Both the position numbers and the translations under genes were made by a program. A stretch of 64,000 nucleotides of DNA from Nymphaea colorata (lineage: Eukaryota > Streptophyta > Magnoliopsida > Nymphaeales > Nymphaeaceae): the NCBI RefSeq assembly GCF_008831285.2, contig NC_045148.1, forward strand, positions 1,362,001 to 1,426,000, read 5' to 3'. Within the stretch, counting starts at the first letter, position 1. The number at the start of each line of letters is the position of its first letter. Shown here one piece after another: positions 5,431-33,393 of this stretch. Under the pieces are notes generated by a model, which saw only the letters and a list, made by a program, of their open reading frames with translations, ran no database searches and had not been told where the DNA came from.

Positions 5431-5439
5431 TAATAGTAT

Positions 5440-6720: not shown

Positions 6721-7195
6721 ATAATGGCAGAAGCCTCTAGGTTTACCTCCATGTCCAGAGTTCTACCACCATGCATGGCTTGTACTTTCATATCGTGCAA
6801 AGAGTTATATCCGAAGGAATCATATTGTGAGTGCATGCATGACTGCAGCCATTTACCTGAATTGTTTGATCAAGGGTCAGTTACTAAGATGATTTCCAAC
6901 TCCTTCTCTCCATATTATACAATGTCTGGAGACGAAGTGACAGAGATTTATTGTCGAGAAAGGCATCACATACAAAATAGAATGGCAAACAAAAAAAAAG
7001 TATTAGACTTAATATCCCTATCCCTGTTCATAATTAAACTTTTCGTATATTACAAGGAAATATAAACAAAGAAGAATTCAAATGCTCTGGCCCCTCTAGC
7101 GCGAGTGAATTTCATAAAAAAGAATTGCCCATAAACATTTTCTCCATGCTCATAACAGTCATAGACCAATGTTAACCTATATGAATGAGGATATG
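6721..7195. other. No gene seen
   Basis: AT-rich DNA. The open frames here are short and show no recognised motif. Confidence 0.5.
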
Positions 7196-7495: not shown

Positions 7496-7589
7496 AAAGC
7501 AGAGCAAGAAAGTTAGAATAGCCACTATGTCTGGGTTGAATAGATGGAGTATATATGAGATTTTCTTTTGAACAGATGGAGTATACATT

Positions 7590-8784
7590 GAATGGCAAAA
7601 AAGGATCTTTTCTTTTGATCGTCAATTTCTAACTTTTAAGTCCAAAGTGGTTTTTGTACTTGAAAGTCCATATGGACTGCAAAACTTTTGTCACTCTGAT
7701 TACTTTCTCTTTATATGAGCTCATGATAATTGTCCATTGTTTTCGAAGATATATATTATAGCAAAATTGATTTTGGAAGCACTTCTGTATGTCAACCCTA
7801 GGAAGATGCACAATCTAAGCAGGAGTCTTCTTGGCTTTGTCATCATTTGAACGAATGATTTTAGGTCTTGCAGTCGATATGGTTGATTTATCATGCATCT
7901 TTGCCGACTGATTTTGTATGCCGAGTGGGGCCACTTTTGAGTGTAGTAACCTGTCTAGTGCAGCACCATTTAAAGGGTGTCATTTAAAGGGTGTACACCT
8001 GCCAGTCCAAACCAGATCGGATGTCCTTCTTTAAATTTGAATCCGATCCAATTTCTTAATCGGGTATTAAATTTTTTTTCATATCAGATTTTTTTCATAT
8101 CTTTCTATTTTTCTCTTTATCTTCTCATTGCAACCTTGCGCTTATATGCAAATTCAGACCTAATGTATCCAATTCCGTATGAAGCATACACATGAATTTA
8201 ACTTTCTAATGATGGCCTTACTTGTGACATGTGCTAACCAGAGCGATACCAGTTTTGACATGGAAGAGGTGGCCTCTCACCGTCAGGCTTTGCTAATTGC
8301 TACCACGAAAATTTCTTATGATTATTGTCTCCTATACTCGTTTATTGTTGTGATTAATCTTCAACTGGAAATTAATTATATATTTGGGTACATGATAACT
8401 CATACCTGTGGCCCTTGTCCTCACTTTTTCAAGCTGAATATCAGTTGCTTTCTTCGAAAGAAAAGGCTGCTTGTTTTCAAAATCTATAATCTGTTCATCA
8501 ATAAAATTTAGTGGAAAATTTTTTTATATTTTCTAGTTTATACACTCTTACTTTTTCAGTTACGACGGTGTATGATTTATTGATGATTTTGACATTTTAA
8601 TTATGAATTTTATTGTTAATTTGCAGGTGGCCGGAAGATGAAAGTGAAAGATGAAACTAAGTATATGTTGAAAACATGCAATATTTTTGGTACCTTTCAT
8701 TACTAATTGTATAATTTTTTAACCATGTAAACAATTTGTGATCAATGAAAAATTTGGTTGATCTTTTGTTCAGAGTCCCTTTTC
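7590..8784. other. Non-coding AT-rich stretch
   Basis: No gene recognised. A 14-bp direct repeat (CATTTAAAGGGTGT) lies near 7968-7995, at the edge of a stretch beginning GGGTGTACACC that resembles hAT MITE ends, but no second terminus was found. Confidence 0.4.
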
Positions 8785-8806
8785 TATATATATATATATA
8801 TATATA
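8785..8806. repeat. (TA)n microsatellite
   Basis: Eleven TA units. To its right at 8807-9027 a plus-strand frame is open but has no recognised motif. Confidence 0.9.
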
Positions 8807-9601
8807 GGCAGCGTTTTCGTACCGCTGCAAGAGCAGCAAGTCAGCATAAAACAAGAAGCTGTGGTAATCTGACGTTGGCCGGCATTTATTACACGTCGGG
8901 AAGCATGACAGGTACATTTATGTGTGTCTCATATGCAGAACACGTGTGCAAAAAACAGGGCTTCCTCTTCAAGCATGTGACAAATAACTCAAGGACAGGA
9001 AACAGTGACGCTGGTGGGGTTACATGAAAGTCCACAATAAATGGTATCCAAAACACTATGGGCTTAAGAGAAGTAAGAAAATCTATGACTACCTTTCGAA
9101 GACTTGGACTGGTAATAGGTTGCTGTACACTGTTTAGAACGCTCGTTGAATCATACTACCCAATTAAAGACCCATATGTAAGAAAACATGGTAGGAGAAC
9201 CCATGATCCCCATGCAACAGGCTCACATCTTCCACCAAGCAGCAACAGATCATGTGCCGACTTGCACTAGTGGGTGCAGGTCTGTGCCTGATTGTATTGT
9301 GGGCCTGCCAGTTTGCTGTTTCCAATAAGAACGAGTCACAAATCATTCAACTGAGAATGTGGATCTAAAAAAGTAATCAGCATTTTGAATGAAAAATTGA
9401 TCGAGGGACGCCAGTCTCATGTCTTCTCTTCACTTTCATTTCCACTGCTCTTCTAGAACACAGACAAACAAACAAATAAAAGAAGACATATATCTTGATG
9501 ATATTGGTATCTCATACCAATATTTATTGGCGGCAGATCAGCTGGAGCAACACATGGCGCCCACTTGTTGATGTGGACTTCTGAACGCTTTGTCTGAGAA
9601 A

Positions 9602-10256
9602 AACTGCAGGTGGGATGGTAGAACATGCGTGAAGAACAGTCGGTCCCTGAACAGAAGGCTGCTGAGGTTCTGTAAGAAGCAGTATCTCCCTCCCTACGAG
9701 GTGCAGTTGCGAGTGGAAGGCTCACTAAGGTGAGAGGTGGAAGCAGTTTGCTCTGACAAATGGACAGGGAATCAAGAATGCCTTCTGTTAACAGCTGAAC
9801 TCTGAAAAGGAAATGCTACAAGGTGAAAGAACAAGATATATCTAAATCCAAAAGGAAAAGAGTTCACCCTGATAAGTGGCCGGCTATAAATCAAGATCAA
9901 ATATGTTTGCAAATGGCATCGGGCAGGTTCAAAGAAAGAAAGGAGGTAGCATACCGTGCTAAAGACTCCACAATCTCATCCTCACTCAGGAGTATGTCAG
10001 CAGAGCGGGTGTGTCTACCACTCTTGAAAACTTTGTTCTGCAGAAGAGGATCTTTGTTGAAAACTTCTGTCAACAAAAGAGCATCATGTTGGCTGCTAAC
10101 AACAACGACTCACTGAAACACATTCAGGATATCACTGAAGGAAGGCGTAAGGTTCCTTACACGCTGGTTTCTCTTACTGCCTACATTCAAAGAATTAAAA
10201 TTTTGAGTATCAACCCTGTGCACCATACACCGTCCATTCTGGTTAGACACCTGTGA
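9602..10256 (+). pseudogene. Exon-like block kept in both duplicates
   Basis: Two stretches stay open in the same frame in both copies. The first starts about 9602 and reads CRWDGRTCVKNS, LNRRLLRFCKKQ and YEVQLRVEGSLR, ending at a 5' splice-site-like AAG|GTGAG at 9728. The second (9823-10116, overlapped by another frame to 10256) reads KRVHPDKWPAINQDQICLQM and AKDSTISSS, then TTLENFVLQKRIFVENFC after a frame change. The paralogue at 24410-24530 and 27553-27810 keeps most residues. I do not recognise the family. The frame change suggests a decayed gene fragment. Confidence 0.35.
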
Positions 10257-10329
10257 AGGCTTTTGTGGAGCTGTCTGCTGTACCTTTCTTCTCTTCGGCT
10301 TCCCCTTTTGTGACCTGTATCGTGGTAGC

Positions 10330-12575
10330 CGATTTCTTTTTTGTTGGCTGTATATATTTAATGGTTGAATAAAAGGCTAGGAGGCCTTTTCCCCTCGCAG
10401 GGTTGTTGCGGCAAAAGATTCACCCTCCACCTGTGTGACATTGTTTTTTTATAAAAATTTGTAACTATTTCCTATGTAATTTTAAATTTTTTGAATTCCT
10501 GAAATTTCCCAAGAAAAACTAGCCCTCTGATTAACACCCAAGAAAGAGTTACCAATGAAAACTGACAATCACATTGTGTCCATGCTTCTCTATCTATTGC
10601 ATATCCTCATTTCAACAGTCCATTAACATAATATCTCCATCTATACGTTATACTAATTTGGCACTGTTTTTGCACATAACTGTCTTGGTGCTTTACACAG
10701 ATGCATAATTTGTCCACCAGTAAGGGATTTGACATGGTTCAATACTTTCGGTCTGATCGCACATCAGGCTGACCATGTAGGTATCTTGATGAAAGCGCCT
10801 GACAACATATATAGAAAGGTGATATCTCCTTTCATTCACTGGTGTAAATATGACAAATTGCTACCATCTTGGAGAGGTTATGGTTAGCACAGTGTCTTAT
10901 GAAGGTTTGTGCTAGCGACTCTAAACTCCCTTACTCATAACTCCTTGACCACTATCGTGTACCAGGTCGACGGCTCACAGTTTGATACTTCCCAATTATA
11001 AACCCAAAAAAGGACCTACATTCTACAATTTAGTGGCCCATTTGGGTCCAGATTTTGTTCAAAATGAGCCTAAAAGAAAATCAACTACAGACATCCTAAT
11101 TGTATGCAAAGCAGACAAAGTGCACAAGACAACAGGACAAAGACTATAAGTCCTCCAAGACTCCAATTCACCCACTAAAATCAATTTCTTGAACATGAGA
11201 ATAGAATTCAAGCAAAATGCTGGAACAGCATAGTGTTCCTGGCATAATGACTAGAGTAACATAGGATTCATGAAGCATAGAACCTTAGCATCAAGTGTGC
11301 TCATTTACATGAGTTCCATTCTATGCAAATACTAATACCCTATATTACCAGATTCTGAAATTTTTGAGTGCTACTAAAAAAGAAAAAGCTACCCAATAAT
11401 TTACTTATTAGTTGCTGAGCGGACCCTGCGTGAACCGAGCTATACTAACATTTTAAACTCAGGATATCTCAATAACATAATGGGCAAATTTTACATCTAC
11501 AGAATGTCAAACAACAAATCATCAATGCCTAAAATAGTAAAAGGATGAATAACAAAATGTTTAGGGCCCACAGAGAAGCTGAAAAGAATTTGCTGATCTT
11601 ATTAGACCTGAAAGGTAGCAAAACTTTCAATCACAAATTCACAATACTAAGATCCCCATTCTACAGCAACTCAGATTTCATAAAATTTCAATCTCTAAAC
11701 AACAGACAACATGTGAGTCACTGTATCATATTCCTGAAATGACCTGATATTGGTCAAAACTCTTTTATATAGCACTATTCTGACAACATGGATGTCGTTT
11801 CAGAAAAAGATGGTAGAGGTACCAATAGTTCATGATCTGTTCGACCGCTCCTCCTGCTCTTGCTCTTAAACCTACAAAAAAGCGAGGGACCAAAAAATCA
11901 TCACAGTCGAAGACAAAACATAAAATTTATTTCCTTCTCAAAAGCGAAGTTTAAAAAGTGTGTTTTAACTTTCAAGTTTATTATGTCAAAATTATTAGTC
12001 AGAAAAAGCAGGAATTCCAAGTAATGCAAGAAAGTATCTGCAATTTTCATTATTTGCGTTTCGTGATTCACAATTATATATTAACTGAAAAGTTTCGATA
12101 GAAGATGCTTATCAATCTTCTCACATGAAAGTTTTTTTTCTTTCAAGTTTTCAAGATTGGCTATGTATTTAAAGGTCCCAAAAGTCTACGGGGAAAACCA
12201 AGAAGAGCCAAAAGTATAGCAACCAAAAAATACATAAGCAAGCCTCGTATACAAAGGCCTCAATCAGGCCAACGTTGATTGCAAGATGTCAAGATGCCAT
12301 CCATCTGAATTATCAAAGGGAAGCAGCTACAGTTCCGTCCACGTAAATAACGAGTTTAGCAAATCAATGCATATCGAAATAGGGAAAGAAATGGGACTAC
12401 TAGAGCAAACTCTAGACTTGCATGGAGGCCCTCGGCATGTAGCTACAAGATCATGTGCATCATGTCTACTTCACAAAAGAGAAGATTCTGGCCACTATTT
12501 CGAGACAGAAGAATTCATAAGAACAACATCTTACCAACAGATTTCGGCACTTTGCTCCTAGATGAAACACATTTT
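10330..12575. other. Non-coding stretch missing from unit B
   Basis: AT-rich DNA without recognisable genes. It is present only in unit A; in unit B the flanks join at about 28048. No terminal repeats or target duplication were seen, so a deletion in unit B is more likely than an insertion here. Confidence 0.5.
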
Positions 12576-12778
12576 CTGGTCAACAGTGCAACGTCCGAAA
12601 GAAAGCATTTTCATTTCAGGTTCGCTCCTAATTCTGTATATACGACTACGAACTGCAAAGCCACTATAGAGGTTCAGTTAGCAGTCGTTCCGACGCTACG
12701 CTCGAGCTTCACTTGATGCATGTCACCACTTGCCTACTTTCACGGCTCTCATCATAAAAAAGAGAATTGTATCCTACA

Positions 12779-12898
<120 letters not shown>

Positions 12899-13352
12899 CA
12901 ATAAGAACAATAGTAAAAATAATTTTTTTAAATTGTGTTGTTGGTAGATTAATCTGGTTAACTAGTTTGATGACATACTAGTTAACCAGAAAATCTAGCG
13001 TTTTTACGAAGTTCAAGTAGAAAAAAAAAGCTTCTCTTCCTATATGTTTTCTTGAACTACTATTTACTACGCTTGATAACGCTATGCTTATTTCTAAATG
13101 ATGGTTTCACTCTGAAAATTGGGTTTTTATAGAAAATTGGAAAGGGCCACTCAAAACATTTTTTTTATGAATAACCTAAACGAAATCGGGTTTTTGGCTC
13201 TCGTTTACAAAAATTAGATTTGGGTAAATTGAATTTTCGTCGAGATGACACCCAAATACTCTAAAAACCATAGCGCAATGTAGTAAAAAGCTTTGCCCAA
13301 GTTTGATTTTGGGCTAACATCCATCACTCAAACACACATCAAACTTGTTTTG

Positions 13353-14045
13353 TGTTATAGTTGTTTTCCCCAAAAAGGATGCTTCAACAACAACTAGTAT
13401 GATAGTCAGACATGCACAAAACTGCTGAAAATAGGAATCACAGGGTTGCAAACAATAAGATCGAGTTTCCAATACTAATGTTGTAGCAATATATATCAAA
13501 ATATATGCTAAATAATGCACAAAATAAGATACACCAATTTACGTGGAAAAACCCCCAATAATAGGGTAAAAACCACGGGCAAGAGAAACTTTCTATATAT
13601 CAAGAAATGGAGTTAAATACACCAGCAGCAATATCCCTATTGTTTAAAGAAAAACAGTGAACTCAAGAGAACAATAACTCTCTTTTATATGAATGAAAGA
13701 AAGAGCCTTAAAGATTCAAGAAAGAAATCACCCACTGAAGACTTCCTTCATTTTCTCTTTCTTCTTTGTCTTTCCTCTCTCTTCCTGGCATGCCGATCAA
13801 CCCACGCACTTTGCTGTTATTTCTCCTTCTTCTCTTCCTTGCCTTCCTCTTCCCCTTCTCTTCTTGTTGTGTGCAGCCACAAAAGGGAAGCCTTCTTTTC
13901 TTTTCCCCAAAAGAAAAACCCGATAGAGAGAGAGGGACGTGAGAGAGATTGGGGGCACCATTGGGTGCCCTCCCCTTTTCCTCCGCCCGTCACTCAAGTG
14001 ACGGGTCGGGTCGGGTCCTCTCTTGAGGCTGGACCTGACCCAACA
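13353..14045 (-). repeat. 3' LTR of Copia element 1
   Basis: 693 bp, against 718 bp for the partner at 20475-21192; one 21-base indel lies near 13392. The plus-strand open frames in this LTR are chance. Confidence 0.93.
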
Positions 14046-17624: not shown

Positions 17625-20429
17625 TGTATTTCTTTCTAGCAATCACAAAACTTTCTGGTTGTGTCATGTAGATTTCTTCCTCTAGATCTCCATGAAAAAA
17701 AGCAGTTTTTAGATCTAACTGCTTCAACTCTAAGTCTAGATATGTCACCAAACCAAGTATTACCCTGATAGATGACATTTTAACCACATGAGAAAAAAAA
17801 ATTATCAAAATCAATACCTATTTCATGCTTGAAAACTTTCACCACTAACCGAGCTTTGTATCTCAACTTGCATTGACCTTCATTTTTAAGTTTGTAGACC
17901 CACTTGTTCAACAACACTTTCTTACCTTTTGGCATCTCTACCAAATCAAAAGTGTGAATCTTATATGTATAATTTATCTCTTACTGCATAACTTGAACTC
18001 ATTCATCTTTATGCACATCATCTAACACCTCTGCATGGCATTTTGGCTCCCCACTATTTGTAAATATAATATATTCATCAGTAAAATATCTAGTAGATGG
18101 TATATGTGTTCTTTTACTTCTTCCCAATTGTTCCTCAATTGAATCTGAATGAGGAGGAAGTTCCCCCTCCAACTCATGCTCATGATCAGTTTGAGTATCC
18201 AAATGGTTGCCATCTATATATTGCTCATCTGCCATGCTTAGATAAAAGCTCTTCAGGTTCTACATAGGTTGGCTCATGAACACCACTATCATTCACATTT
18301 GACTTTATGTTACCCATGATATTTTCAATCGTCTGATCCTCTTTGAAGACAACATCACGTCTCTAGTTGATTTTGTCATTCTTTGAATCTCATAACCTGT
18401 AACCAAATTCATGATCTGCATAACCAAGAAATATTAGAAGAATAGATTTATGATCTAATTTGGTTCTATGTTCTTTTCGTACATGCATAAAAGCTTTGCA
18501 ACCAAAAACTCTGATGTGATCATACTTAACCTCTTCATCTGACCAAACTTTCTGTGGAATATCTCCATTTAGAGGCACTGAAAGAGACATGTTTATTAAA
18601 TAAACTGCAGTACACATTGCCTCTGCCCAAAAATACTTAGACAACTTAGGGCTAAACAGCAAACTTCTAACTCTCTCAATTATAGTTCTATTCATCCTTC
18701 TACAACTTCATTATGCTGTGGAGTATAGGAAATTGTCTGTTCATGTCTAATACATTGCTTTAGACAATAATCTCATAAAGAACATGTTATGTACTTACCA
18801 CCATTATCTGTACGCAGTCTCTTCATCTTCTTACCAGTCTCGCGCTCAACCGCTTTATGAAAAGTCATGAAGATACTACTTACTTAACTTTTGTTTTTCA
18901 TTGTAAAGGCTCATACCTTCCTAGATGCATCATCAATAAATGTAATAAAATATGATGTTTCACCTTTAGATGTCACATTTATAGGTCCATATACATTTGA
19001 ATAAAGTATATTTACTACATTTTTAGTTTTGAAGAGCGAGACTCTATGCAACTTACCAACCAAACAATGATCATAAGGAGATAATTGTGCACCATCTGCC
19101 TTTGGTGACAAATTCTTCTTCGTGAGCAAATCGATTTATCTTTGACTCATGTGACCTAACCTCTTGTGCTACAAATCTGACACCAGTACCTGCATGTACC
19201 TCCACACTACTGATTCGAGACTTCATCCCATACAAAGAACCAAATTTGCAAACTCTATCCAACACTAGTGCCCTCTTTGTCAATTTTCAACCAGTCTGAC
19301 TGAACAAAGTACAATATCCATCTTCACTTAGTTTTCCTACAGAAATCAAATTCATTCTAAGATCTTGAATATGTCTTACATCACGCAAAGTCAACTTGCA
19401 TCACGTGTTTGTCTCAATGCAAACATCTCATATCCCAACAATCTTTGAAGTGTCACTGTTGCCCATGTAAACTACTCCAAGATCACCCGCTCTGTAGGAT
19501 AATAACAACTTTCTACATGGTGTGGTATGATATGAAGCCTTAGTATCTAAAATCCGTATAGAATCACCATTCTGAACTGTAAGACAATCATTTTCTTCAG
19601 ATAAAAATAATACTATCTCATCATCTGAAGCAACTGCAGTGTACTCTTTTGGCTTCACATTCTCTTGACTCTTCTTTTTCTATTCTTTTTCTTCTTTCCA
19701 TTTCCTACAATCAATCGTCTTATGACCTAGAATACTACAGTGAAAGCATTTACCTATCATCGTGGGCCTTGATTTAGACTTACATTTTGATCTGTCCTAC
19801 CATTTGTTACGGCTTTTTTGTATGTCGCTATCTCTCATCACTAGCACTTGTGAGCTACTAGTACCAAGAGACTTTCTCCTTGTTTCTTCATTTAGAATGC
19901 TACTGATTACATGCTTGATCGTAAGCACACCATCTGGAGCGGAGTTGCTCAAAGAAATAACTAAAGTCTCTCAACTGTCGAGAAAAGAACTGATCAATAA
20001 GAGTGTCTGTAACTTATCATCTAATATCATTTTCATAGTTGACAACTGATTGATTATGCTCTGCACTTCATTCAAATGCTTTGACATAGGTTTTCCTTCT
20101 CTAAGTTTCAGATTTACCAATTGTCTAATCAAGAAAGCCTTGTTCCCAGTTGTTTTCATCTTGTAAAGATCATGCAATTTCTACCATAACGACTTTGTGC
20201 TCGTCTCTGTGGATACCAAATGAAAAACACAATCATCTAACCATTGTTTGATGGTGCCAATGGTTTTCCTGTCCAATAAGTTCCTTTTTTCATCTGTCAT
20301 ATTCGCTGGCTTCTGGTTCTCAATGGGTGCATATAGGTCTTTACAATACAACAAATCTTTCATTTTCGCTTTTCATATGGTCCAATTGTTTCCATTTACA
20401 GAGATCATTCTAGTGGGAGTCGACTCCAT
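17625..20429 (-). pseudogene. Copia element 1: gag, protease, integrase, RT N-terminus
   Basis: Reads leftward from an ATG at about 20429. Gag at 20429-19970 includes LLYCKDLYAPIENQ and LIRQLVNLKLREGK, with TGA and TAG codons replacing Trp-type positions. A single zinc knuckle CFHCSILGHKTIDC follows near 19740. The protease has LDTKASYHTT, where the catalytic D-S/T-G-A has become D-T-K-A. The integrase has YSNVYGPI in place of the usual YSDV, losing the first catalytic Asp, then KYFWAEAMCTAVYLINMS at 18695-18390. The RT starts with LDLKTAFFHGDLEEEIYM near 17715. Many frameshifts: a dead polyprotein. Confidence 0.9.
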
Positions 20430-20474
20430 CCTTCAATGAGAATGCACACAACCAATCTGGCTCTGATACCACTT

Positions 20475-21192
20475 TGTTATAGTCGTTTTTCTCAAAAAGA
20501 ACGCTTCAACAACAATAAAATAGGTCAAACCAACCAATATGATAATCGAACATGCACAAAACTGCTGAAAATAGGAATCACAGGGCTGTGAGCATAAGAT
20601 CGTGTCTCCAATACCAATGTTGCAGCAATGTATATCAAAATATATGCTAAATAATGCAGAAAATAAGATACACCAATTTATGTGAAAAAACCCCCAATAA
20701 TGAAGAAAAAAAACCATGGGTAAGAGAGACTTTCTATATATCAAGAAAGTGAGTTAAATACACTAGCAGCAATATTGCTACTGTTTTAAGAAAAACGGTG
20801 AATTCAAGAGAACAATAACACTCTTTTATATGAATGAAAGAAAGAGCCCCAAAGATTCAAGAAAGAAATCATCAAATGAAGACTCCCTTCATTTTCTCTT
20901 GCTTCTTTGTCTTTCCTCTCTCTTCTTGGCATGCCGATCAACCCAAGCACCTTGCTGTGATTTCTCTTTCTCCTCTTCCTTGTCTTCGTCTTCCCATTCT
21001 CTTCTTGTTGTGTGCAGCCATAAGAAGGAAGCCCTCTTTTCTTTTCTCCAAAAGAAAAAACCCGATAGAGAGAGAGGGATGTGAGAGAGATTGGGGGCAT
21101 CATCGGGTGCCCTCCCCTTTTCCTCCGCCCGTCACTTAAGTAATGGGTTGGGTCGGGTCGGGTCCTCTCTTGAGGCTGGATCTGACCCAACA
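20475..21192 (-). repeat. 5' LTR of Copia element 1
   Basis: 718 bp; ends next to the initiator-Met primer site at 20459-20471. The right edge GACCCAACA is followed by the target duplication TTTTG. Confidence 0.93.
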
Positions 21193-21197
21193 TTTTG

Positions 21198-22328
21198 GAC
21201 TGAAAGTCTTCTAGGACCATAAAAGTTTATGTACACCTATATTTTGTCTCTAATTTATTTATTGGCGGTCCATCTGAGCCCTAGCCATTTTCTAGAAGGT
21301 CGTGCCCCTCCGATCCCATCACGTTTGTCTTCTTCGGCACAGGGAATCTGCTTCATCTTTTATGCTACAGGAAGATTTTTCCCATTGAAGCTCAAAAAAC
21401 AAACCATTTCAGGTTAGGATCTCGGCAAGCTCAAGTATTATGGAGGTTGGATATGGTTAGATTCAGTTTTGTAAATTAAAATGTTGAATGGGCCGAACTA
21501 AATGAATTTGACCCAAGTTTGTTGGCATGATAATTGTGTAGGGTTCTTCACCCTATCTTACAGTAAAAATGACGACCCAAACGAGTTTAATTTTGCAGAT
21601 GTTTAATAGAAAAACTTATTTAGGAAGAAATGATTAGTGTATGACTTCTCTCGTATTTGAATGTATAGGAAATGTTCTTCACCAACATTTTTTGTTCAAA
21701 ATGAAGAATGTCAGTCAATTAATTTAACAACTTAGTTGAAACAATATCGGTTGAGGTTGGTAAAAGCAACAAAGCAAAGTGGCGTTAAGCAAAACTACCA
21801 TCTTCTTTCTTTTCCTCGGGTTTAGGGTTGCTTTTGAACATAAGTGGTCTTATGGTACACATTTCAACTTAATTGACATGCATGTTATCGTCGGTACTTA
21901 AGAAAAGTAGTACTTATAGAAACTAAACTGAAGACATATCGTCAGCATTACACTTAGATTGACCAGACCAGCTAGAAAGCACTTGCCATTCATTGGTTAT
22001 TAGGGGCATCCCGAAAATGTCCAGGTTACTATACCTCTTGGGGCTCAATGAAATAAAATGAAATGTTAAACTTGTCATGAGACGAGGTTTAGGCCTCAGA
22101 GATGCTGAAGTGTAAGCTTCAAGATCAATGTAATGAACTGTATAAAAATAATGATGAAATAAAAAAACCAAACTAAGCCAATTTTTATAATTTTACAATA
22201 TAAAAAATTTTGAGACTCTTGTTGAAAAAACTGTTACATGTTTCACAAGACAATTTTGGTACTTAGGGTATTTTGGGACATAACTGATTCATATTTGACA
22301 GATTTGACTTTTTTACCTGAGTTATTGA
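21198..22328. other. No gene seen
   Basis: AT-rich stretch between Copia element 1 and repeat copy B. No recognised coding or transposon sequence. Confidence 0.5.
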
Positions 22329-23489
22329 AAGCACAAAACTTAACTTATGGAGCCAAGTCTTTGGCTTTCACCATGCATTTTCTTGAGCTCACTATAGATA
22401 CATACACATGTTCATCTTCTTAATTTGGTTACCATTGAACAACGAGAATAACTTGTAACTATTTCATAAATGTATGTATCCCGAAAACAAAACTTGTAAC
22501 TATTTTATAAATGCATGTTTCTCAAAAATTGGGGCAGGTTTATAAAATTCTCATGAAATGGTTTCATAAATCTGACTCAATTTTTAGTATTCAAGTTTTA
22601 GGACACATTCAAAGATAGGATAAGTTGTACCTGTGGGGCTGTGTGAGAGAGATTGTTTTTCTTTGTATTTTTTATTTGTAATTGATTCTGGTTCAAAAAG
22701 AAGATGGAACAATGTGTGGCCCCACTAAAGGCAAATTTATTTGTTTATACCAATTATAATGATGGCCAATATAGATAATAAATCTAAGATAAATATTATC
22801 AGTGGCTTATATAACAACAAAATCCCGACTTTTCATCTCTTCTAGTAAAAAAAGGGAACAATTTGTTTCCCCATCAAAGGCAAATCTACAGATACCTAAT
22901 TATCAATTATGAAGACTGCCAAAATAGATAATGAATCTAAAAGATGACTCTAATATTAAAGGAGACAAATAAAATCGTCGGAGGTTCTCCATTTTCATCT
23001 GTTGTAGCACCATTAAGTGCACCTCGCCCATCGATTATTATCAACCACTGGATGATCGACTGCATCACGCCGTCAATCATTCACACTGCTTTCATTCGAC
23101 TAGATCCGATCACACATTTTAAATCCAACGATAGGCTTGTTTAAAAGCTACATTTTTGTAGGCCTGCTACGTATAATTCCCTTGTAAGTACGTGACAATT
23201 TGGAACTCGCATGTGATTGGAGAGATAACAGATGTTGGTGGTGATGGGAGTGTTGAAATACACCGACATCATTGTTGAGTGTAAACCTAGAGCTGCTCGT
23301 GTGCCCCTTCCTTCCCATCTCTCTCTCCCTCTCTTTCACCCAGTTTGCATATGAACCCATTATGCGCAAACACGAAACTGGTTGGTGCAATGTAATGGCA
23401 CCTTCCCTTTTATAATTTCTTTCAGAGTGAGTTGCCTACAACACTCTATGCACGCAGATTTTGGTTGGTGCATCCTCCTCCCACTCTTT
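22329..23489. repeat. Unclassified repeat, copy B
   Basis: Matches 3055-3380, 3801-4690 in the same orientation. It has no MITE; the empty 8-bp site is at 22638-22645. It includes the sequence of the palindrome's left arm but stops at CACTCTTTT (23489), before the arm's inner part, and lacks the right arm. Twenty-three bases later the P450 hairpin starts. Confidence 0.8.
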
Positions 23490-23613
23490 TCCTGATAGCT
23501 CTTTTCTTCGTTATTTGTCACCACGTGAACCGAATGGAAAATTTCCATAATAAATACCAACCTTGTGGTTGGGGCCTCTCCCACAAGCAGTAAGCCAAGG
23601 AAGAACAACATTG

Positions 23614-23805
23614 ATGGCAGCTGCCATGCTCCTTCTTCTGGCTTCTGTAGCTCTGTTCCTCGCATGGGTGGTGGTGAAGACAGTATACTCTGTGTGGTGG
23701 AAGCCAGGCAGTACGCAGAGTTCTTCAAGAGGCAGGGAATCCATGGCTACCCTTACAAACTCCTCGTCGGCAACTCGTGGGAAGAAGCTACTATGTCATG
23801 AGAGA
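23614..23805 (+). pseudogene. CYP72-clan P450 N-terminal exon, left arm
   Basis: Start of a plant cytochrome P450, an ER-anchored heme monooxygenase. From the ATG the frame reads MAAAMLLLLASVALFLAWVV, one membrane anchor, then YSVWWKP. A single-base deletion near 23706 shifts the frame; the next frame continues RQYAEFFKRQGIHGYPYKLL and VGN. The pattern WW.P....FF.RQGI.G.PY..L.G is typical of the CYP72 clan. Only about 64 residues of the usual 500 are present, no heme-binding Cys, no downstream exon. The match of promoter plus first exon suggests a copy of genomic DNA, not of an mRNA. Confidence 0.8.
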
Positions 23806-23974
23806 AGGCCATGGGCTTAGCCGACAAGGAGTTTGTAAGGGTAGCCATGGATTCCTGCCTCTTGAAGAACTCAGCGTACTGCCTGGGCTTCCACCACACA
23901 GAGTATACTATCTTCACCACCACCCACGAGAGGAAGAGAGCTACAGAAGCCAGAAGAAGCACAGCAGCTGCCAT
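23753..23974 (-). pseudogene. CYP72-clan P450 N-terminal exon, right arm
   Basis: Mirror copy of the left-arm exon. It reads MAAAVLLLASVALFLSWVVV, then YSVWWKPRQYAEFFKRQ without the left arm's frameshift, but loses one G in the GGGAATCC stretch, so GIHGYPY is out of frame. The two arms broke at different points, so neither was copied from the other after both were broken. The reading frame runs through the loop to a stop at 23753. Confidence 0.8.
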
Positions 23975-24098
23975 CAATGTTGTTCTTCCTTGGCTTACTG
24001 ACACTGCTTGTGGGAGGGCCCCCTACCACAAGGTTGGTATTTATTATGGAAATTTTCCATTTGGTTCACGTGTTGACAAATCATTTTGGTGTTTATTA

Positions 24099-24530
24099 TA
24101 GAAATTGTGGGCCTGCCAGTTTGCGGCTTCTAATAAGAACGACTCACAAATCGTTCAACTGAGAATGTGGATCTAAAAAGTAATCAGCATTTTGAATGAA
24201 CAATTGATTGAGGGATGCTAGTCTCATGTTTTCTCTTCACCTTCATTTCCATTGCACTTCGAGAACACAAACATACAAACAATTAAAAGAAGGCATATGT
24301 CTTGATGATATTAGTATCTCGTAACAATATGTATTGGCAGCAGATCAGTAGAGCATCACATGGGGCATGTTGATGTGGACTTCTGAATGCTTTGTCTAAG
24401 AAAACATGCAGGTGGGATGGTAGAACATGTGTGAAGAACAGTCTGTCCCTGAATAGAAGGGTGCTGAGGTTATGTAAGAAGCAGTTTCTCCCTCACTATG
24501 AGGTGCAGTTGCGAGTGGAAGGCTCACTAA
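24099..24530. repeat. Segmental duplication, unit B part 1
   Basis: Matches 9296-9728 at about 90 % identity and ends at the TAA target site of the Harbinger element. It carries the same exon-like frame as 9602-9728. Confidence 0.85.
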
Positions 24531-24912
24531 CGCCTTGTTTGGTTGGAGGGAAAGGGAGGGAAAGGAATGGAGAGAAAGGGAGGGAATGGGAATGGAAGGG
24601 AAGATAAAGGGAAAGGAATGGAATGGAAATGAAAGAGGTGATTAAAAAACTTGCTTTGATAGAAAGGAAAGGAAATGAAAGGAAAGACTAAAATCATGTT
24701 TGTATGGACTACATAAAGGAAAAGAAATGATATAATTTATAATACTTTACAGTAATACCCCTAACAATCAAAAAGTTTAAAAAATTGAGAGGTTTGTAAA
24801 AGAAAAGACACATCGAAAAAACAAAACAGAAAAATTACGCACCCCACCTTGCTCATGTGTTTCCCACCCCAATGACGCTTGGATCTTCTACTGTCCCAAA
24901 ATGAGAGCCCTA

Positions 24913-24952
24913 GTATATATAGAGAGAGAGAGAAAGAGAGAGAGGTCTTTGG

Positions 24953-25023
<71 letters not shown>
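24913..25023. repeat. Self-complementary (AG)n...(CT)n(TA)n microsatellite
   Basis: TA, AG, a short GGTCTTTGGATCC spacer, CT, then a long TA run, inside the Harbinger element. The AG and CT blocks are complementary and can fold back. Confidence 0.9.
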
Positions 25024-25026
<3 letters not shown>

Positions 25027-25224
25027 TGAGAGGGAGGTTTTAATGTGAGATAGTCACCAATGGTCATCAAAAACTTACATAAAAAGAGAGTGAAAACATT
25101 AGAACAACAGGGAAATATCGTCTTAAGTAATAACTTTAGATCAATCAAACAAAATGTTGGTAAACAAAGTAATTGTCTAAAGACAAAAAAATCACATAGC
25201 AAAATAAAAAATAACATTCATGTC

Positions 25225-26261
25225 TTAGATAATTCCAGCTCTGCTAAGCATCATGAGTAAAACATTCTTTTGCTTAGAAGAAGGACAATACAAAAATGTT
25301 TCCATCCTATTTTTATCATCAGTAAGATGAAGATATGCTTTGGTTTGTAACTCTTCTTCAAAACCAATAACTTCAAATGCTGAAAATATGTCTTCTTTAG
25401 AATATCTATTTGACTGTCTCGACTTTGGTATGACATTACTTTTTTCAATTGCATTAGCAACTCTCTCGAAAACATCTTTCATTATTTCAATCTCTTTTAA
25501 ATAATCTTCATTTGCACTTCTTGTCCTTTTACGCTTTGACAATGATCCTGTGTTGGGCTCAACTTGGACTTCACACTTGTCTCCTAGGTTGATAAATGGT
25601 TTTAATACTGTTTGATTTTGAGAAACCATTTCATCAATAAGCTGGATTGCCTCGCTAGTATTCTCACACGCTGAAGTCATTCAAATGCGCTTGTCTTTCA
25701 CTATCATCGATCCTTCGCTTGTTGCTCTATCATTACCAAATAAATTTACTAGCTTCTCATAGTTTAGAGCAGGTGTCGTCATTTACTTTTTTGTCATTGG
25801 ATTTGCCTATAAAAAACACACAAAAAAAGATAATGACGTCAAAGCAACTCTTATTTAACATAAAAAGTAATGCTATAAGAAAATAATATTAAATTACTAA
25901 AAAGAAAATAGGTACCTCTATTAGTGGCTTCCATACTTCAGGTTCAGCAGTCCACATATTTGTCATTGAATCAATGCTAAATCCACTCAAAACCTCTTTT
26001 AAAGATGTCATAACAACTACTGAAGTTAGACTTCAACGTTTTCATTCGATTTTTTATGTGACCCTTGGTGAGCATTTTACCCAACTTATCGTTCAGTTCT
26101 ATCACAACATTATCATATGCAGTTGTAGTAAAAGTGTCATTCACTCGATTACCTATTATTTGTTGAAGCAGTAATGCATCAATAAGCACATCATCCATAG
26201 ATTGACTCCATTGTATCTTGTGAGCCTTTCCTTCATCTGTATATATTTGATTCTTCTTCAT
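25225..26261 (-). pseudogene. Harbinger ORF1 (Myb/SANT-like DNA-binding protein), decayed
   Basis: Companion protein of PIF/Harbinger transposition, which binds the element ends with the DDE transposase. Exon 1 (26261 to about 25916) holds the Myb/SANT-like fold: KIQWSQSMDDVLIDALLLQQ, then KGHIKNRMKTLKSNFSSCYD. An extra A in an A-run near 26000 shifts the frame; the corrected frame continues MWTAEPEVWKPLIE to a GT donor. A 109-bp intron ends at TTATAG, and exon 2 (25806-25225) reads LNYEKLVNLFGNDRATSEGS, the basic SKRKRTRSANEDY, and a helical C-terminus. Two in-frame stops (near 25782 and 25681) add to the damage. Not functional. Confidence 0.85.
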
Positions 26262-27455
26262 TGTTATTAGCTAAATGCAAAGTAAAACAAATTTAGGAAA
26301 GACGTTCATAATGAAAAGAAAAAATCATGTGTAATAATAAAAGATCAAGTAATTAAATTCAATGAACAGTCTACTCTCAACAGCTATTTTATCTTAACAT
26401 TGTCATGACAAACTTCTCATTGGGTTTTCCTCTCGATATTGCTTAAGTTTGTTTCCATGAATCTGATTGCACTAGAATCTAGTCAGTCCATACAGTACTG
26501 TTCATAGTTGTCTGCTTGCTCGTCTTATCATTCTATGAAGTTTTTCATACTCATAAAGTGATGGAAGTGATTCCACATGTTGCTGCTGAGTATCTATGTT
26601 GTCATACCCAATCTAACACAATGTTAGAAAGTGCTCGTGGATCTTCCAAAGCCTGTCAATTTATTGTTAATATTTTTTAGATTTATTTGTTTATTTTTAC
26701 ATCAGCATGACAAACTTAAGAGTGTGAAGGTAGATGGGGAAGAGATCGCGTTTGGAGGGCAACAATAAAATACAAAATTTAATAGCAGAAAAAATTTTCA
26801 TGACAGAGTTTATCACTACAGAATAGTTCATGATGAACATAGTCAAAAGAGAACTCTACACTCCTACTATTTATTCTTTGTGAATTAGAAACAACAATTC
26901 CAAACTGGATCCTTCACACTTCATCTGATTAAAAAGTTGTAAGGGCGACCAAAATAAAAAAAAAAATGCAGCACCCAAAATCAAGAAAATGCAGCAACTG
27001 AAAACGGAAAAGGCAGCAACGAAAAGCTCACCTTCTTTTCAGATGGCGTTGGAACAAGGTGTCGCAGCACTCCTCAGACAATGTTGGAACAGGATTGTCA
27101 CAGCAAGTGTGCCCTGTTTCTCATGGAGGGGAAGGAGGCGCAGTAGGTGTGGACTGTTTTTCGTGGAGGGGAAGGAGGCAACAGTTCATGCTTTTTTATA
27201 GAAAAAAAAGGCTCGTGGGTGCAGGGGTATTGTGGGTAGAAAGGGAGGCAACAATTTGTGCTCTTTCCTTTCCCTCCCAATCCCTCCAATTTTGGAGGGA
27301 TTGGATTTACACTACTCTATCATTTCTTTTCCCTCCCTTTCCTTTCCCTCCCCTTGCAGCTAAACACACTTTCTTTTTTCCCTCCTTTATAATTAGCCAA
27401 CCAAGCAAGGAAGGGATTGCCCAATCTCTGCCTTTCCCTTCAACCAAACAGTCGG

Positions 27456-28133
27456 TAAGGTGAGAGATGGAAACAGTTTGCTTAGACAAATGGACAGGGA
27501 ATCAAGAATGCCTTATGTTAACAGCTGAACTCTAAAAAGGAAATGCTACAGGGTGAAATTAAAAAATCCTTGTATATCTAAACCCCAAAGGAAAATAGTT
27601 CACCCTGATAAGTGGCCGGCTGTAAATCAAGATCAAATATGTTTGCAAATGGCATCGGCCAGAGTCAGAGAAAGAAAGGTGGCAGCATACCATGCTAAAG
27701 ACTCCACAATCTCATCTTCACCCAGGGATATGTCAGCAGTGCGGCTGTCTACCACTCTTGAAAATTTTGTTCTGCAAAAGAGGATCTTTGTTGAAGGCTT
27801 CTGTTCATAAAAGAGCATCATGCTGGCTGCTAACAACAACTACTCACTGAAATAGATTCAAGATACCACTGAAGGAAGCCGCAAGGTTCCGTACATGCTG
27901 GTTTCTCTTACTGACTACATTCAAAGAATTAAAACTTTGAGTAACAACCCTGTGCACCATACACCGTCCAATCTAGTTTGACACCTGTGAAGGCTTTTGT
28001 GGAGCTGTCTGCTGTACCTTTCTTCTCTTTGGCTTCCCCTTTTTCCAGTCAATAGTGCAACGTCCTAAAGAAAGCATTCTCAATTCAGGTTCGCTCCTAA
28101 TTCTGTTTCTACGACTACGAACTGCAAAGCCAT
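27456..28133. repeat. Segmental duplication, unit B part 2
   Basis: Matches 9726-10311 then, after a junction near 28048, 12577-12659. The exon-like frame at 27553-27810 parallels 9823-10116 and ends in a stop (FVEGFCS). Confidence 0.85.
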
Positions 28134-28587
28134 TAGAAGACCACACGCCAGGAATAAGAAAGAAAAAAGAGAGAGAAAAGGAGAAGACGACAAGGATTTT
28201 AACATGGTTCAACCTTTGGTCTACGTCCACGAAGGAAGGTGTCTCTTTCTTTTTTTTTAATTTTACAAGACAAGAGACTCTTTTTATAGTCAATTTTCAT
28301 GACCATCAATCCCATATTCGTTGGGATTTGATTTGATTACAGAATCACTAATCCCATATTTGTTGGGATTATATTTGATTACAGAATCACTAATCCCGTA
28401 TTTGTTGGGATTATATTTGATTACAGAATTACACGTTTCCTCTTTTTCAGTTGCTATATATAGATGATCCTCATCTTTTGTAGCAGTCTTAATAGCCTAA
28501 GCGTTATCTTTGGTAGGGACATGATTTGTGGATCTGATATGGGCAAGATTTCCTCCAGCTGTAGATGTGTGATGCAGTGGTTTAATA
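28134..28587 (-). repeat. 3' LTR of Copia element 2
   Basis: 454 bp. Contains three tandem 42-bp units at 28308-28433, each with AATCCC...GGGATT arms. Confidence 0.95.
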
Positions 28588-28607
28588 TTCCCCCTCAAGA
28601 TGAATGT

Positions 28608-30140
28608 TCAGGAAAGAGCGTTAAGCTTGAATCTAAGATTGTCAAAAGTAGATTGAGCAAGTGGCTTGGTGAGGATGTCCGCGAGCTGATCAACACTAGG
28701 TATATAGTGGACTTGAAGATGATTCTTGGCAATATGATCGCGAACAAAGTGAACATCAATCTCAATATGCTTGCTTCTATTATGAAAAACCGGATTAGCG
28801 GAGAGAGAGGCAGCACTGATGTTGTCACACCATAGACGAAAAACGTGTGGCATATTAATATGTAATTCCTTGAGTAAAAACGTGAGCCATAAAACCTCAG
28901 AAGAACAGGAAGCTAGAGCACGGTATTCAGCTTCGGTGCTAGATCGAACAATAGTAGGCTGTTTGTGGGCAGACCAAGAAACAAAAGATGATCCTATAAA
29001 GATGGCAAAACTGCCAGTGGACTTACGATCATCAAGGTTGCTAACCCAGTCTGCATCAGTGTAAGCATCAATGTGAAAAGTGGTGGCCAGCTTTAACAGA
29101 AGACCGCAAGATAGGGTGGCCTTGACATAATGCAAAATGCGTTTGACAGCAGTCATGTGAATAGTAGTAGGTTGTTGCATGTATTGACACACTTTATTGA
29201 CAACAAATGAGAGATCAGGCCGTGTGAGCGTAAGATATTGCAGTGCACCAACAAGTTGTCGATATGGAGTGGGATCGAAAAGAGGCTCCCCGACGTGTTT
29301 TGACAGTTTTAAAGTGGTCGACATAGGCGTGCAGTGAGGTTTTGCATCAATCATATTTGCTTTCTGCAGAAGGTCAAGCATATACTTTTTTTGAGAAAGA
29401 AATAAACCTTCGGAGGAGAAAGTCACTTGAATTCCCAAAAAATAGTGCAGGAGGCCAAGATCTTTAATGCCAAATTCTTGATCTAGAGTATGCATGATGG
29501 ACTTGATCATAGTATCATTATTTCGTGTAATAATAATATCATCAACATCGATCAAGATATATAAATTTTAATCAGATCGCACCCACAGAAAAAGAGAGGA
29601 ATCCACTTTTGAGCCGATGAACCCCAATGTGACCAAGAAATTAGTAAGCTGTTGGTACCAAGCACGGGGAGACTGTTTTAAACCATAAATAGCCTTATGC
29701 AGTTGACAAACATGATGAGGAAAACGATCATCGATGAAGCCCGGTGGTTGAGCCATATATACCTTCTCAGTAAGAACACCATGAAGGAAAGCATTGTGAA
29801 CATCAAGTTGTCGAACAGTCCAGCCAAAAGCAATGGCAATAGTGAAAAAAACACGTATAGAAGTGTGTTTGACTACGGGACTGAAGGTTTCAAAGTAGTC
29901 AACACCATGTTCTTGAGTGTAGCCCTTAGCCACTAAACAAGCCTTGTATCTTTCTATTGTGCCATCAGCTTTTCTTTTAATACGAAAAACTCATTTCGAG
30001 CCAATGATATTAGCAGAGGGAGGCGATGATACAAGAGTCCATGTGTGATTCTTGTGTAGAGCTACAAGTTCATCTTTCATGGCTTGAACCCAATAAGTGT
30101 GCTTCAAGGCTTGAGACGCAGTACGAGGTTCAGTTTCAGA
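28608..30140 (-). pseudogene. Copia element 2: reverse transcriptase and RNase H
   Basis: RT and RNase H of the polyprotein. The RT starts near 30140 (KHTYWVQAMKDELVALHKN), has one in-frame TGA at the GSK-stop-VFRIKR site near 29990, then VAKGYTQEHGVDYFETFSPV and VHNAFLHGVLTEKVYM. A TAA at 29568-29570 precedes LIDVDDIIIT, where the catalytic YVDD has D for Y. The remainder is open for 316 codons: FHIDAYTDADWVSNLDDRKS and SSTEAEYRALASC are RNase H catalytic blocks, followed by SKHIEIDVHFVRDHI. It ends 20 bases from the LTR. Two stops are all that close it. Confidence 0.93.
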
Positions 30141-30142
30141 GA

Positions 30143-31550
30143 TTAGATGGGTGAGATGAACTGCAGGAAGGGGATATTTGGAGATGGTGTAGGTTTTTGG
30201 CTTAAGAGAACCAGTTTGGACCGAGTGAGCATGTGGTGAGAGCGATGCAGTCTAGGGGGTGGTGAAGGGTTTGGCGGTGAAGGATGAGGTGGTGAATAGG
30301 TAGGTGAGGGTGTAGGTTCAGATTGTATATCCTGAACGATGTTGGATGGTGAATGAACGAGAGGGAGTGGTGGTGGGGACGATGTAGTATTTGGTGAATG
30401 GTGCACGGGTGTGAGAGAGGAACGGTTTAAGAGAGGTGGTATGTTTGGGGAGGGCAAAGTAATGAATAGAGGCAGTGGAGGTTTACTTGGTGTAGGTTGG
30501 GCTGGTGATGCCAAGGTTTTAAATGGATATACACTTTCATCAAAACCACATGTCTGCTGATAAGAAGTTTGCTTGTATCTCAATCAAAGCAAATGTATCC
30601 TTTGTGCATGCTGCTATATCCAAAAAAGATATGTTGCTTGCTATGAAACTGTAGTTTATGAGTATTAAAATCACGTAGACAAGGATAGCAGGCACATCCA
30701 AAAACCTTTAGAAACTTATAATTAGGAGATTGTTTGAACAAAACTTGATATGGTGACTTCATTTTGAGAACCCGTGTTGGCATTCTATTGATCAAGAAAA
30801 CAGCAGTTCTAAAGGCAAAGTCCCAATACTTATAAGGTAAATTTGCATGTGCAAATAAAGTTAATCTAATGTCAACAATATGTCTGTGTTTGCTTTCTAT
30901 GCTGCCATTTTATTGGTGAGCATGTGGGCACGCAACTCTATGAACAATACCAATTTATTTGAGATAGGTGGAAACAGTGCGATATTCTCCTCCCCAATCG
31001 CTTTGAAGACAGAAAGAACATCTGATCTACTTTTGATAATATATATCCAAGAGAAACGAGAGAAGGCATCCATGAAATTAACATAATAGCAATAACCATG
31101 AACAGATGTGGTAGCAGCCGGTCCCCAAACATCAGTAAAAATCAAATCAAGTGGAGCATTAATCTTATGTAATGTTTGAGCAAGAGGAAGAACATGACTT
31201 TTCCCTTTTTCGCATGCATCACATATTTGATTATGAGATTTGCCATCAATAGGTAAGTCAAATTTATTCAAAACATGCATCACAATTCTAAAATCAGGAT
31301 GTCCCAAACGACTATGCCAATCACCAATCGAGACCCGTTCTCCTACAAGTGTTGTTTTCTGGCAGGCTCCATGTTGTTGTAACTTCAGCTGATACAATCC
31401 TCCTTTATTTGCTCTCTTAAGAAGTTTCTCCCCTGTTGTCTGATTCTTAACATAGCAATGATTTGCATCAAATTCAAAGACAATGTTATTGTCACGGGCA
31501 AATTTATGCACAGATAGAAGATTTTTAGAGATGGTGGGAACATGCAGCAC
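30143..31550 (-). pseudogene. Copia element 2: integrase with Pro-rich linker
   Basis: Integrase of the polyprotein. The zinc-binding domain (WHSRLGHPD, CDACEKGK) lies near 31320-31200 and the catalytic core starts with IFTDVWGPAATTSVHGY; the frame runs from 31550 to 30897, then shifts. The later core appears at 30795-30580 (MPTRVLKMKSPYQVLF, FLKVFGCACYPCLR, FFGYSSMHKGYICFD). A 146-codon frame at 30583-30143 follows; it is about one third Pro and is the variable linker to RT. At least one frameshift. Confidence 0.9.
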
Positions 31551-31689
31551 ATTGTTTATAAAAAATTTTGAGGCTGGGCTGTAGAGAGAGACATTACCAA
31601 CATTCTTGATTTGAAAACCAGTACCATTTCCAACTCTCAGCTGATCTTGCCCACGATATTCTGAGTGAAAAGAGAGTTTGTTTAGTCAG

Positions 31690-32744
31690 TCGTCACGTGA
31701 TGAGTAGCACCGATGTCGAGATACCAGAATCCATCATCTGTTTGAGGTATGGTTTCCATATGATAAGCTTCTGGGGATGAAGATCCCTTTTGGAACTTGT
31801 ATAACTTGCAACTCAATGTACCATGTCCTGATTTCCTACAAGCTTGACATACAGCTCGACATTAGGAAGCGAAGTGGCCACGATTTCCGCAGGCATGACA
31901 ACTGACATTTTTATCCTGAGGACGGATTCCTGAACGCCCTTTTTGCTGCTCATTTCTTCCACGGTAGTTGAGATTCTTGAAGTTTTGTCGGTGGGCTACA
32001 TAGGCTGAAGGATCCTCAACGTTTCCAGACTTTGAAATTTCAGATTCTTGAATAAGAAGCAAAGAATATAATTCTTCCAAGTTTATGGGATCGACGCGAG
32101 TGCGCAACGAAACTTTCAGGATGCCATATTCATCAGTAGGAAGACCAGAAAGAATATTCATGATAAGATCCTCCTCATCTACTGGTTTGGAAGCCATGGC
32201 TAGCTGATGAGTTATGCCTTTAGCTTTGTGAAAATATGTTGTTATGGATTCATTTCCCTTTTTCAGGTTTTGCAGGGCAGATTTAAGTTGTTGCACCTTT
32301 GCTCTAGATTGAGCAGCATAGATGCGTTTTATGGTAGTCCAGACTTTGTATGACGAGTCGAGACCTACAACTTGACTATGGATGACTTCACTAAGCAACG
32401 AAATGATCCAACTTAACAATAGTTGGTCGCCTCGATGCCATTCCAAGAAAGTTGGATTTAAGATAGTTCTTTTGTCATCTTCACTAGGCAAGTACTCGTC
32501 TGGGCATTTGAACGACCTATCAATATATCCCATCATATTATAACTCTTAAGCATATGAATGAATTGAGATTCCCAAAGCAAGTAGTTGTCGGAAGACAGT
32601 TTGATGGATAAAAAATGCTGAAGAATAGTTGGGGCAGGTATGACGGAGAAGATCAGACCTCAAAATGGCATATTCATTTTGTCGAAACCAGACTTGGTTG
32701 ATGCTGTAGGAGTCTCCTTTTGGGATTGCTTGTTGATTCGCCAT
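31690..32744 (-). pseudogene. Copia element 2: gag and protease start
   Basis: Gag begins at ATG 32742-32744, six bases past the primer site. Its opening frame (MANQQAIPKGDSYS) is shifted against the main gag frame at 32581-31862, which carries LLSEVIHSQVVGLDSSYKVW, IKRIYAAQSRAKVQQLK and the first zinc knuckle CHACGNRGHFAS. A TAA follows directly and the same frame continues with a second knuckle-like CRAVCQACRKSGHGTLSC, then the protease motif YLDIGATHHVTT, where the usual D-T/S-G-A is D-I-G-A. One stop therefore separates the two knuckles. Confidence 0.9.
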
Positions 32745-32761
32745 AACCAGCTCTGATACCA

Positions 32762-33215
32762 TAGAAGACCACATGCCAGGTAGAAGAAAGAAAAGAGAGA
32801 GAGAAAAGGAGAAGACGACAAGGATTTTAACATGGTTCGACCTTTGGTCTACATCCACGAAGGAGGGTATCTCTTTCTTTTTTTTAATTTTACAAGACAA
32901 GAGACTCTCTTTTATAGTCAATTTTCATGACCATCAATCCCATATTCGTTGGGATTTTATTTGATTACAGAATCGTTAATCCCATATTTGTTGGGATTAA
33001 ATTTGATTACAGAATCGCTAATCCCGTATTTTTTGGGATTAGATTTGATTACATAATTACACGTTTCCTCTTTTTCAGTTGCTATACATAGATGATCCTC
33101 ATTTTTTGTAGTAGTCTTAATAGCCTGAGTGTTATCTTTGATAGGGACATGATTTGTGGATCTGATATGGGCGAGATCTCCTCCAGCTGTAGATGTGTGA
33201 TGCAGTGGTTTAATA
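32762..33215 (-). repeat. 5' LTR of Copia element 2
   Basis: 454 bp, same length as its partner. Holds the same three 42-bp units at 32936-33061. Confidence 0.95.
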
Positions 33216-33343
33216 GCCACGATAGTGGTTCACGTAGAAGTCTTTCCGACACTGCCGCTCGAGCTTCACTTGATGTATTTCACCACTTGCCTACTTTCAT
33301 CGCTCTCCTCATAAAAAAGAAAATTTATCTTATAAACTCTCAG

Positions 33344-33346
<3 letters not shown>
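33216..33346. repeat. Segmental duplication, unit B part 3
   Basis: Continues the match to 12660-12780 right after the Copia insertion (GCCACGATAG...CTCGAGCTTCACTTGATG). Homology ends at the microsatellites. Confidence 0.85.

Positions 33347-33389
<43 letters not shown>
33347..33389. repeat. (TA)n microsatellite
   Basis: About 21 TA units. It stands where unit A has its compound CT/TA/AG tract. Confidence 0.9.

Positions 33390-33393
<4 letters not shown>

Follow-up and report, generated by a model that had tools for sequence, protein, structure and literature searches.

The birth of new silencing loci has mostly been inferred from older, eroded cases. In Nymphaea colorata (genome 408 Mb), the window analyzed here, 64,000 nucleotides of chromosome C11 (C11:1362001-1426000), contains a hairpin built from two inverted copies of the 5' end of a cytochrome P450 gene. 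The locus raises the question of how such a structure came to stand within a local gene array, and whether it could act on the genes that it resembles. Its main features are listed below; the motifs and start codons were assigned by sequence, and the CACGTG and TATA-like elements are putative.

Left arm, 23513-23771, plus strand: beginning of exon 1 of a CYP72A397-like gene, preceded by about 100 nt of sequence before the ATG (23614); carries a 6-nt deletion and a 1-nt frameshift of its own.
Right arm, 23820-24081, minus strand: the P450 promoter and exon 1 a second time, in inverted orientation; carries a 3-nt deletion and a 1-nt frameshift of its own.
CACGTG of the left arm, 23522-23527, unstranded: putative G-box-like element.
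CACGTG of the right arm, 24067-24072, unstranded: putative element.
TATA-like ATAAATA of the left arm, 23550-23556, plus strand: putative, facing inward.
TATA-like ATAAATA of the right arm, 24038-24044, minus strand: putative, facing inward.
ATG, 23614-23616 (plus strand, left arm) and 23972-23974 (minus strand, right arm).

The arms (259 and 262 nt) are inverted copies of each other separated by a 48-nt spacer. They differ at 13 of 255 aligned bases and by four arm-specific indels, giving an identity of 94.9 % ungapped or 91.0 % with the 11 gap columns counted; the whole palindrome, including the loop, gave 86.6 % in a gapped self-match. A first pairwise figure of 28/275 takes in unequal inner ends forced into the alignment; arm divergence was counted on alignment columns up to 264 only, in agreement with 13/255. 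Each arm carries its own 1-nt deletion, and the resulting frameshifts differ. The predicted minimum free energy of 23490-24100 was -476.5 kcal/mol, compared to -184.7 +/- 7.7 kcal/mol in shuffled sequences (n=20, none as low), and folding and self-comparison both returned inverted arms able to form a long stem. A search of 20000-27000 against Rfam gave no match at the gathering score and thus no known MIRNA family. The first-pass annotation had described an inverted duplication of a CYP72 promoter and first exon, with arms of 259 and 262 bp at about 95 % identity, a 48-nt loop, differing frameshifts, and CACGTG, a TATA-like box and a P450 start in both arms; the measurements and located motifs agree with this description throughout, and the duplication itself is borne out by matches to CYP72 loci elsewhere in the genome.

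These matches came from a genome search with the hairpin as the query, which returned 29 match rows from 13 scored candidates. Among these candidates, twelve places outside the window were matched, and at each of them the two arms aligned in opposite orientations. C11 has eight of the twelve (10107815 to 10510044) and C2 has two, with a single place each on C12 and C5. The best match to the left copy and loop (query bases 2-310) was C11:10502143-10502454, at a moderate identity of 90 %, and the nearest relatives of the hairpin are CYP72A397-like genes on the same chromosome, 9.1 Mb away. The gene at C11:10510044 is 83 % identical to the left copy and loop and 87 % identical to the right arm, and identities for six other CYP72 loci at C11:10107-10142 kb range from 76 to 88 % where they align. 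The P450 similarity of the arms gives out no more than 2 bases short of their outer ends. The C11:10502 kb gene (approximately 10500767-10502454) has exons 1-3 and a portion of exon 4; a match to the last exon was absent from the following 13.8 kb, and this closest CYP72A copy appears to be 3'-truncated. In the neighbor at C11:10507-10510 kb, which was called complete, five open pieces follow one another in order; four of these gave Pfam P450 matches, in one case with a score under the family cut-off. Neither exon-1 translation gave a Pfam P450 match, and exon 1 was named from its place in the gene and the whole-protein match. Joining the exons of one donor-family locus (L009) gave a protein with 99 % identity to "cytochrome P450 72A397-like" of N. 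colorata, and a solved-structure search identified the donor as an ordinary P450. The arms thus have extended similarity to a gene family of the same genome. The parent gene anticipated in the first-pass annotation was found as a CYP72 family, with a closest copy that reaches only 90 % and appears truncated. A lone 75-nt match to the P450 start at C12:21912073-21912147 is apparently joined to other sequence.

Divergence between the arms bears on both age and source. The Kimura two-parameter distance is 0.053; taking plant substitution rates of 1.3e-8 to 6.5e-9, the hairpin would be, on a rough estimate, 2-4 million years old. Five of the core substitutions are specific to the left arm and eight to the right, and each of the four core indels is likewise confined to one arm. 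At 12 sites (columns up to 264), the arms share a base that differs from the C11:10502 kb gene; six of these match the C11:10510 kb gene and are therefore changes of the 10502 kb gene, four are hairpin-lineage changes, and two are ambiguous. Four (up to six) substitutions are thus common to both arms and absent from the two nearest genes. The source may have closely resembled one of the sampled genes without being identical to it, or these changes may have accrued in a single-copy insert before inversion. A G-U pair would survive at 2/13 arm differences if the plus strand were transcribed and at 5/13 if the minus strand were; the arm changes are uncompensated, and nothing suggests selection to preserve the stem. 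The C-to-T changes in the arms fall at CG/CHG sites in 5/5 cases. A locus-specific methylation signature was considered and dropped because other comparisons lean the same way (5/7 in a second hairpin described below; 7/14, 7/13, and 11/16 in the array; 5/7 and 1/2 in P450 genes).

Could the locus be a working hairpin-siRNA gene, in which a transcript driven by an arm promoter or by read-through would be diced to 21-24 nt products that lower CYP72A397-like transcripts? The near-perfect stem of about 260 bp is what such a gene would need, and the arms share exact 21-mers with P450-type loci. For the C11:10502 kb gene, these number 57/239 in the left arm and 49/242 in the right; for the complete C11:10510 kb gene, the counts are 46 and 48, respectively. 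At least one exact arm 21-mer occurs in 8 of 11 P450-type loci (one positive locus being the lone C12 fragment, and the two C2 places being taken as one stretch), three share none, and the longest exact run is 62 nt. On these shared 21-mers, targeting of CYP72A genes by the arms is possible. Transcription starting about 30 nt beyond a TATA-like box would drop the outer 70 bp and leave a stem of about 190 bp, and a stem of that length would be a likelier substrate for siRNA dicers than for DCL1. The uncompensated arm changes and a C-to-T pattern with no sign of locus-specific methylation also weigh against a working gene, which we consider a tentative prospect with the balance against it. Present small-RNA output from the hairpin is likewise doubtful, and a silencing effect that matters would be improbable. 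A bacterial promoter scan of the locus has no bearing on plants and was set aside.

The origin of the structure is recorded in more than the arms. The 48-nt loop is itself P450 coding sequence, contributed by both copies:

Loop, left half, 23772-23795, plus strand: exon 1 of the left copy up to the CTATG junction.
Loop, right half, 23791-23822, minus strand: exon 1 of the right copy past a 41-nt deletion; CTATG overlap with the left copy.

In the left copy, exon 1 continues into the loop up to ...GCTACTATG. The right copy, read on the minus strand, has a 41-nt internal deletion between two GGC trinucleotides and then continues for 32 nt; the two copies overlap by 5 nt at CTATG. Since the loop consists of P450 sequence from both copies meeting at this point, the palindrome is a tail-to-tail structure with unequal ends. 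The right-hand 32 nt are identical to the C11:10510 kb gene and differ from the C11:10502 kb gene, to which the left-hand piece is closer. Two donors are therefore conceivable: P450 fragments inserted separately, or the members of an inverted P450 pair reduced by deletions, would have become neighbors. A short deletion in the C11:10502 kb gene could explain the mismatch of the right loop piece, and both arms share their outer end base as well as substitutions absent from both genes. On balance, this origin is improbable.

The surroundings of the hairpin supply the remaining evidence. The left flank (22328-23491) is part of a local array whose copies lie near C11:1319, 1331, 1354, and 1366 kb, and an open frame of the array (C11:1330576-1331154) scores as DUF677 (PF05055, E 3e-9). 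Host sequence and a short scar border the palindrome:

Left host sequence, 22328-23491, plus strand: in blocks common to sister array units (A unit 3054-4710).
Right host sequence, 24104-24530, plus strand: common to A unit 9296-9728 and partly to C1:40401366-40402035.
Scar, 24086-24106, minus strand: repeats arm sequence 23540-23560 at 19 of 21 positions.

The hairpin lies in one array unit (B unit, window 20475-33392) and its sister (A unit, window 3054-14045) shows 87-91 % identity to it across the main blocks, with one block at 76 %; the two units are interrupted by different insertions. At the point equivalent to the hairpin, the A unit carries an inverted promoter arm, and its homology with the B unit picks up again after 4.6 kb. 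For a locus at C1:40401 kb, alignment with the A unit covers 8903-9245 and 9252-9605 and so spans 9296, but alignment with the B unit starts only at 24104, which points to loss of host sequence from the B unit, with the hairpin now standing in its place. The loss is seen on the right side by comparison with C1 and the A unit, and on the left side by comparison with sister units. The scar gave a self-match with an E of 0.042 against the whole window; in a control, 0/120 local 30-mers matched the arms at 19 bases, and the best reached 16. Matches to the left flank (22900-23512) were confined to the local array except for a short one at C11:787134. The right flank proper matched the A unit and one C1 locus, in a search where 40/273 candidates were scored and the match numbers are a lower bound. 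A dispersed repeat starts at about 24525, its first ~70 bases matching places on many chromosomes; a right flank that is itself dispersed was rejected, as the further matches belong to this separate repeat. At the corresponding place in the sister unit, window 4488-5093 forms an inverted repeat (fold z -37.7) whose arms, by eye, resemble head-to-head array-gene promoters with TATA-like boxes facing outward; related repeats lie near C11:1319-1320 and 1354-1355 kb.

Pack-MULEs typically capture gene fragments between inverted repeats, and a transposon of this or a similar type, holding a gene fragment in its terminal inverted repeats, would resemble the P450 hairpin in both respects. Unlike a Pack-MULE, the hairpin has no target-site duplication (no shared word longer than 4 nt within 20 bases on either side), and none was found at the second hairpin or at the outer repeat of the latter (again no shared word longer than 4 nt). 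No other inverted P450 copy was found among the 13 scored candidates, in which the remaining matches are single P450-type loci. Because no target-site duplication was seen and no other inverted copy occurred among the scored candidates, a transposon is very unlikely; P450 similarity reaching to within 2 bases of the outer arm ends and the loss of host sequence argue in the same direction. An assembly artefact is less credible still: missed adapters in long-read libraries can yield palindromic reads, but the arms of this palindrome differ by 13 substitutions and by four indels confined to one arm or the other, its inner ends are unequal, and its flanks are collinear with sister units.

The explanation that we favor, with moderate confidence, is that error-prone repair of a chromosome break made a hairpin from a gene fragment. 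We infer template switching as the process from the structure, the donor family, the host-sequence loss, and the junction features observed above. A break in one unit of the DUF677-type array would have been accompanied by loss of sequence that the sister unit keeps. The gap would then have been filled with the 5' end of a CYP72A397-like gene (about 100 nt upstream plus exon 1), copied in both orientations, one copy each, by template switches guided by microhomology, and a last short backward switch would have preceded joining of the right end. The product would carry two inward-facing putative P450 promoter cores and could in principle be transcribed into a hairpin RNA, and so give rise to siRNAs against CYP72A genes. 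Donor relatives on the same chromosome, the CTATG overlap, the GGC-flanked 41-nt deletion, and the right-edge scar all favor break repair; microhomology and a re-copied scar are found at the junctions alongside the host-sequence loss. The lack of a target-site duplication, a second hairpin of like layout 42 kb away, and the yeast precedent for paired inverted insertions (PMC11724301) add to this. Relatives at 90 % are present, with no exact donor copy among the sampled genes.

Several observations fit break repair less well. The outer ends of the two arms coincide to the base, a result not predicted by a random switch, and the TTTTCTTCGTT stretch at the left junction has no explanation under this reading. 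Because of the four to six arm-shared substitutions absent from the two nearest genes, the direct source may be another or a lost paralog, or a single insert may have been inverted later, and one event is not required. The 4.6 kb of the A unit, set against the hairpin in B, is compatible with one large deletion, with several, or with insertions in A. The arms of the second hairpin, finally, are already chimeric, which for that hairpin suggests that capture came before inversion.

This second hairpin (C11:1342770-1343446; L031:2770-3446) has a like layout and lies outside the window, 42 kb to the left of the P450 hairpin. Its gapped self-match is 88.2 % and its predicted minimum free energy -591.5 kcal/mol; the arms differ at 17/310 positions (a few inner-end bases included), compared to 13/255 in the P450 hairpin. 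Their counterpart (81 and 86 %) is the 5' end of a 168-codon frame without interruptions (C5:2976407-2976697); this frame has two related places near C5:2976 kb, its 168-aa protein gave no Pfam match, and the loop is a downstream piece of the same C5 gene after a 143-nt jump. The arms agree against the C5 gene at 34/280 sites, so that the sampled gene cannot have been the direct source. Over their outer 33 nt, the arms match C11:1296 kb instead of C5; the hairpin is therefore chimeric, and its fusion probably preceded the inversion. It is nested inside an outer inverted repeat (1341820-1342088 / 1343780-1344230).

Five palindromic matches occur in the 126-kb focal region (the two hairpins and three array repeats), compared to none in seven stretches totaling 89.8 kb elsewhere; in one of the seven, a long inverted pair is separated by a 1.7-kb spacer. 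The contrast hints at, but does not prove, a palindrome hot spot, the sample being small and its stretches not randomly chosen. The P450 hairpin and the hairpin from the C5 gene, which gave no Pfam match, are similar in arm divergence, and both adjoin more diverged inverted array promoters, and a second like case 42 kb away raises the question of whether some regions produce such loci repeatedly. On a bolder and improbable reading, 1.31-1.39 Mb would be a "hairpin nursery", in which a break-prone array refills its breaks again and again with tail-to-tail 5' ends of unrelated genes and, from inward promoters, yields dsRNA against each donor. Were this true, with both hairpins giving small RNAs, the region would supply new silencing loci by a natural route, here captured at an early age in a water lily.

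The P450 hairpin belongs to a known class, that of inverted duplications, and its uncommon parts are a readable repair history and a second hairpin nearby. It keeps donor relatives, an insert-free sister site, junction overlaps, and a readable scar; with these repair traces, the proposal that break repair can make a hairpin from the 5' end of a gene becomes directly testable. If siRNAs are made, CYP72A expression in this water lily would be under a recently arisen trans regulator, a counterpart of the YUP case in monkeyflowers.

The inverted-duplication model of young plant MIRNA and hairpin loci is established (Allen et al., as described in PMC3237417), and the loci described there likewise have both arms with extended similarity to a protein gene, adjoining in inverted order. 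The YUP (Mimulus) and SULF (Antirrhinum) siRNA loci are similar in being incomplete or inverted copies of protein genes, the gene copied in YUP being a CYP450 homologue, and both have known siRNAs and phenotypes according to PMC12371187. For the Tpd1 hairpin RNA of maize and teosinte, another long hairpin and possible hp-siRNA source, 22-nt siRNAs and a drive phenotype are reported (PMC11390486). The P450 hairpin differs from the MIRNA-model loci in a nearest relative 9 Mb away and a site that lost host sequence. On the repair side, breaks in yeast can acquire paired inverted insertions from one locus, and these templated insertions resemble the P450 hairpin in having two inverted pieces from one locus and microhomology; local foldback duplications in that report are mostly 5-34 bp, whereas the arms in this plant are 260 bp (PMC11724301). 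Among the literature matches listed, judged by titles and abstract openings, there was no report on Nymphaea hairpins.

Elsewhere in the window, a tandem repeat array of about 4.1 kb (45886-50023) has a period of about 235 with a 57-nt sub-period. Pieces of a Ty1-copia-like reverse transcriptase, integrase, and gag lie on the minus strand at 28608-32659 and a SAUR-like open frame on the plus strand at 59820-60746, both named by eye from open frames; a relative of the latter at C11:1311132-1311662 scores as Auxin_inducible.
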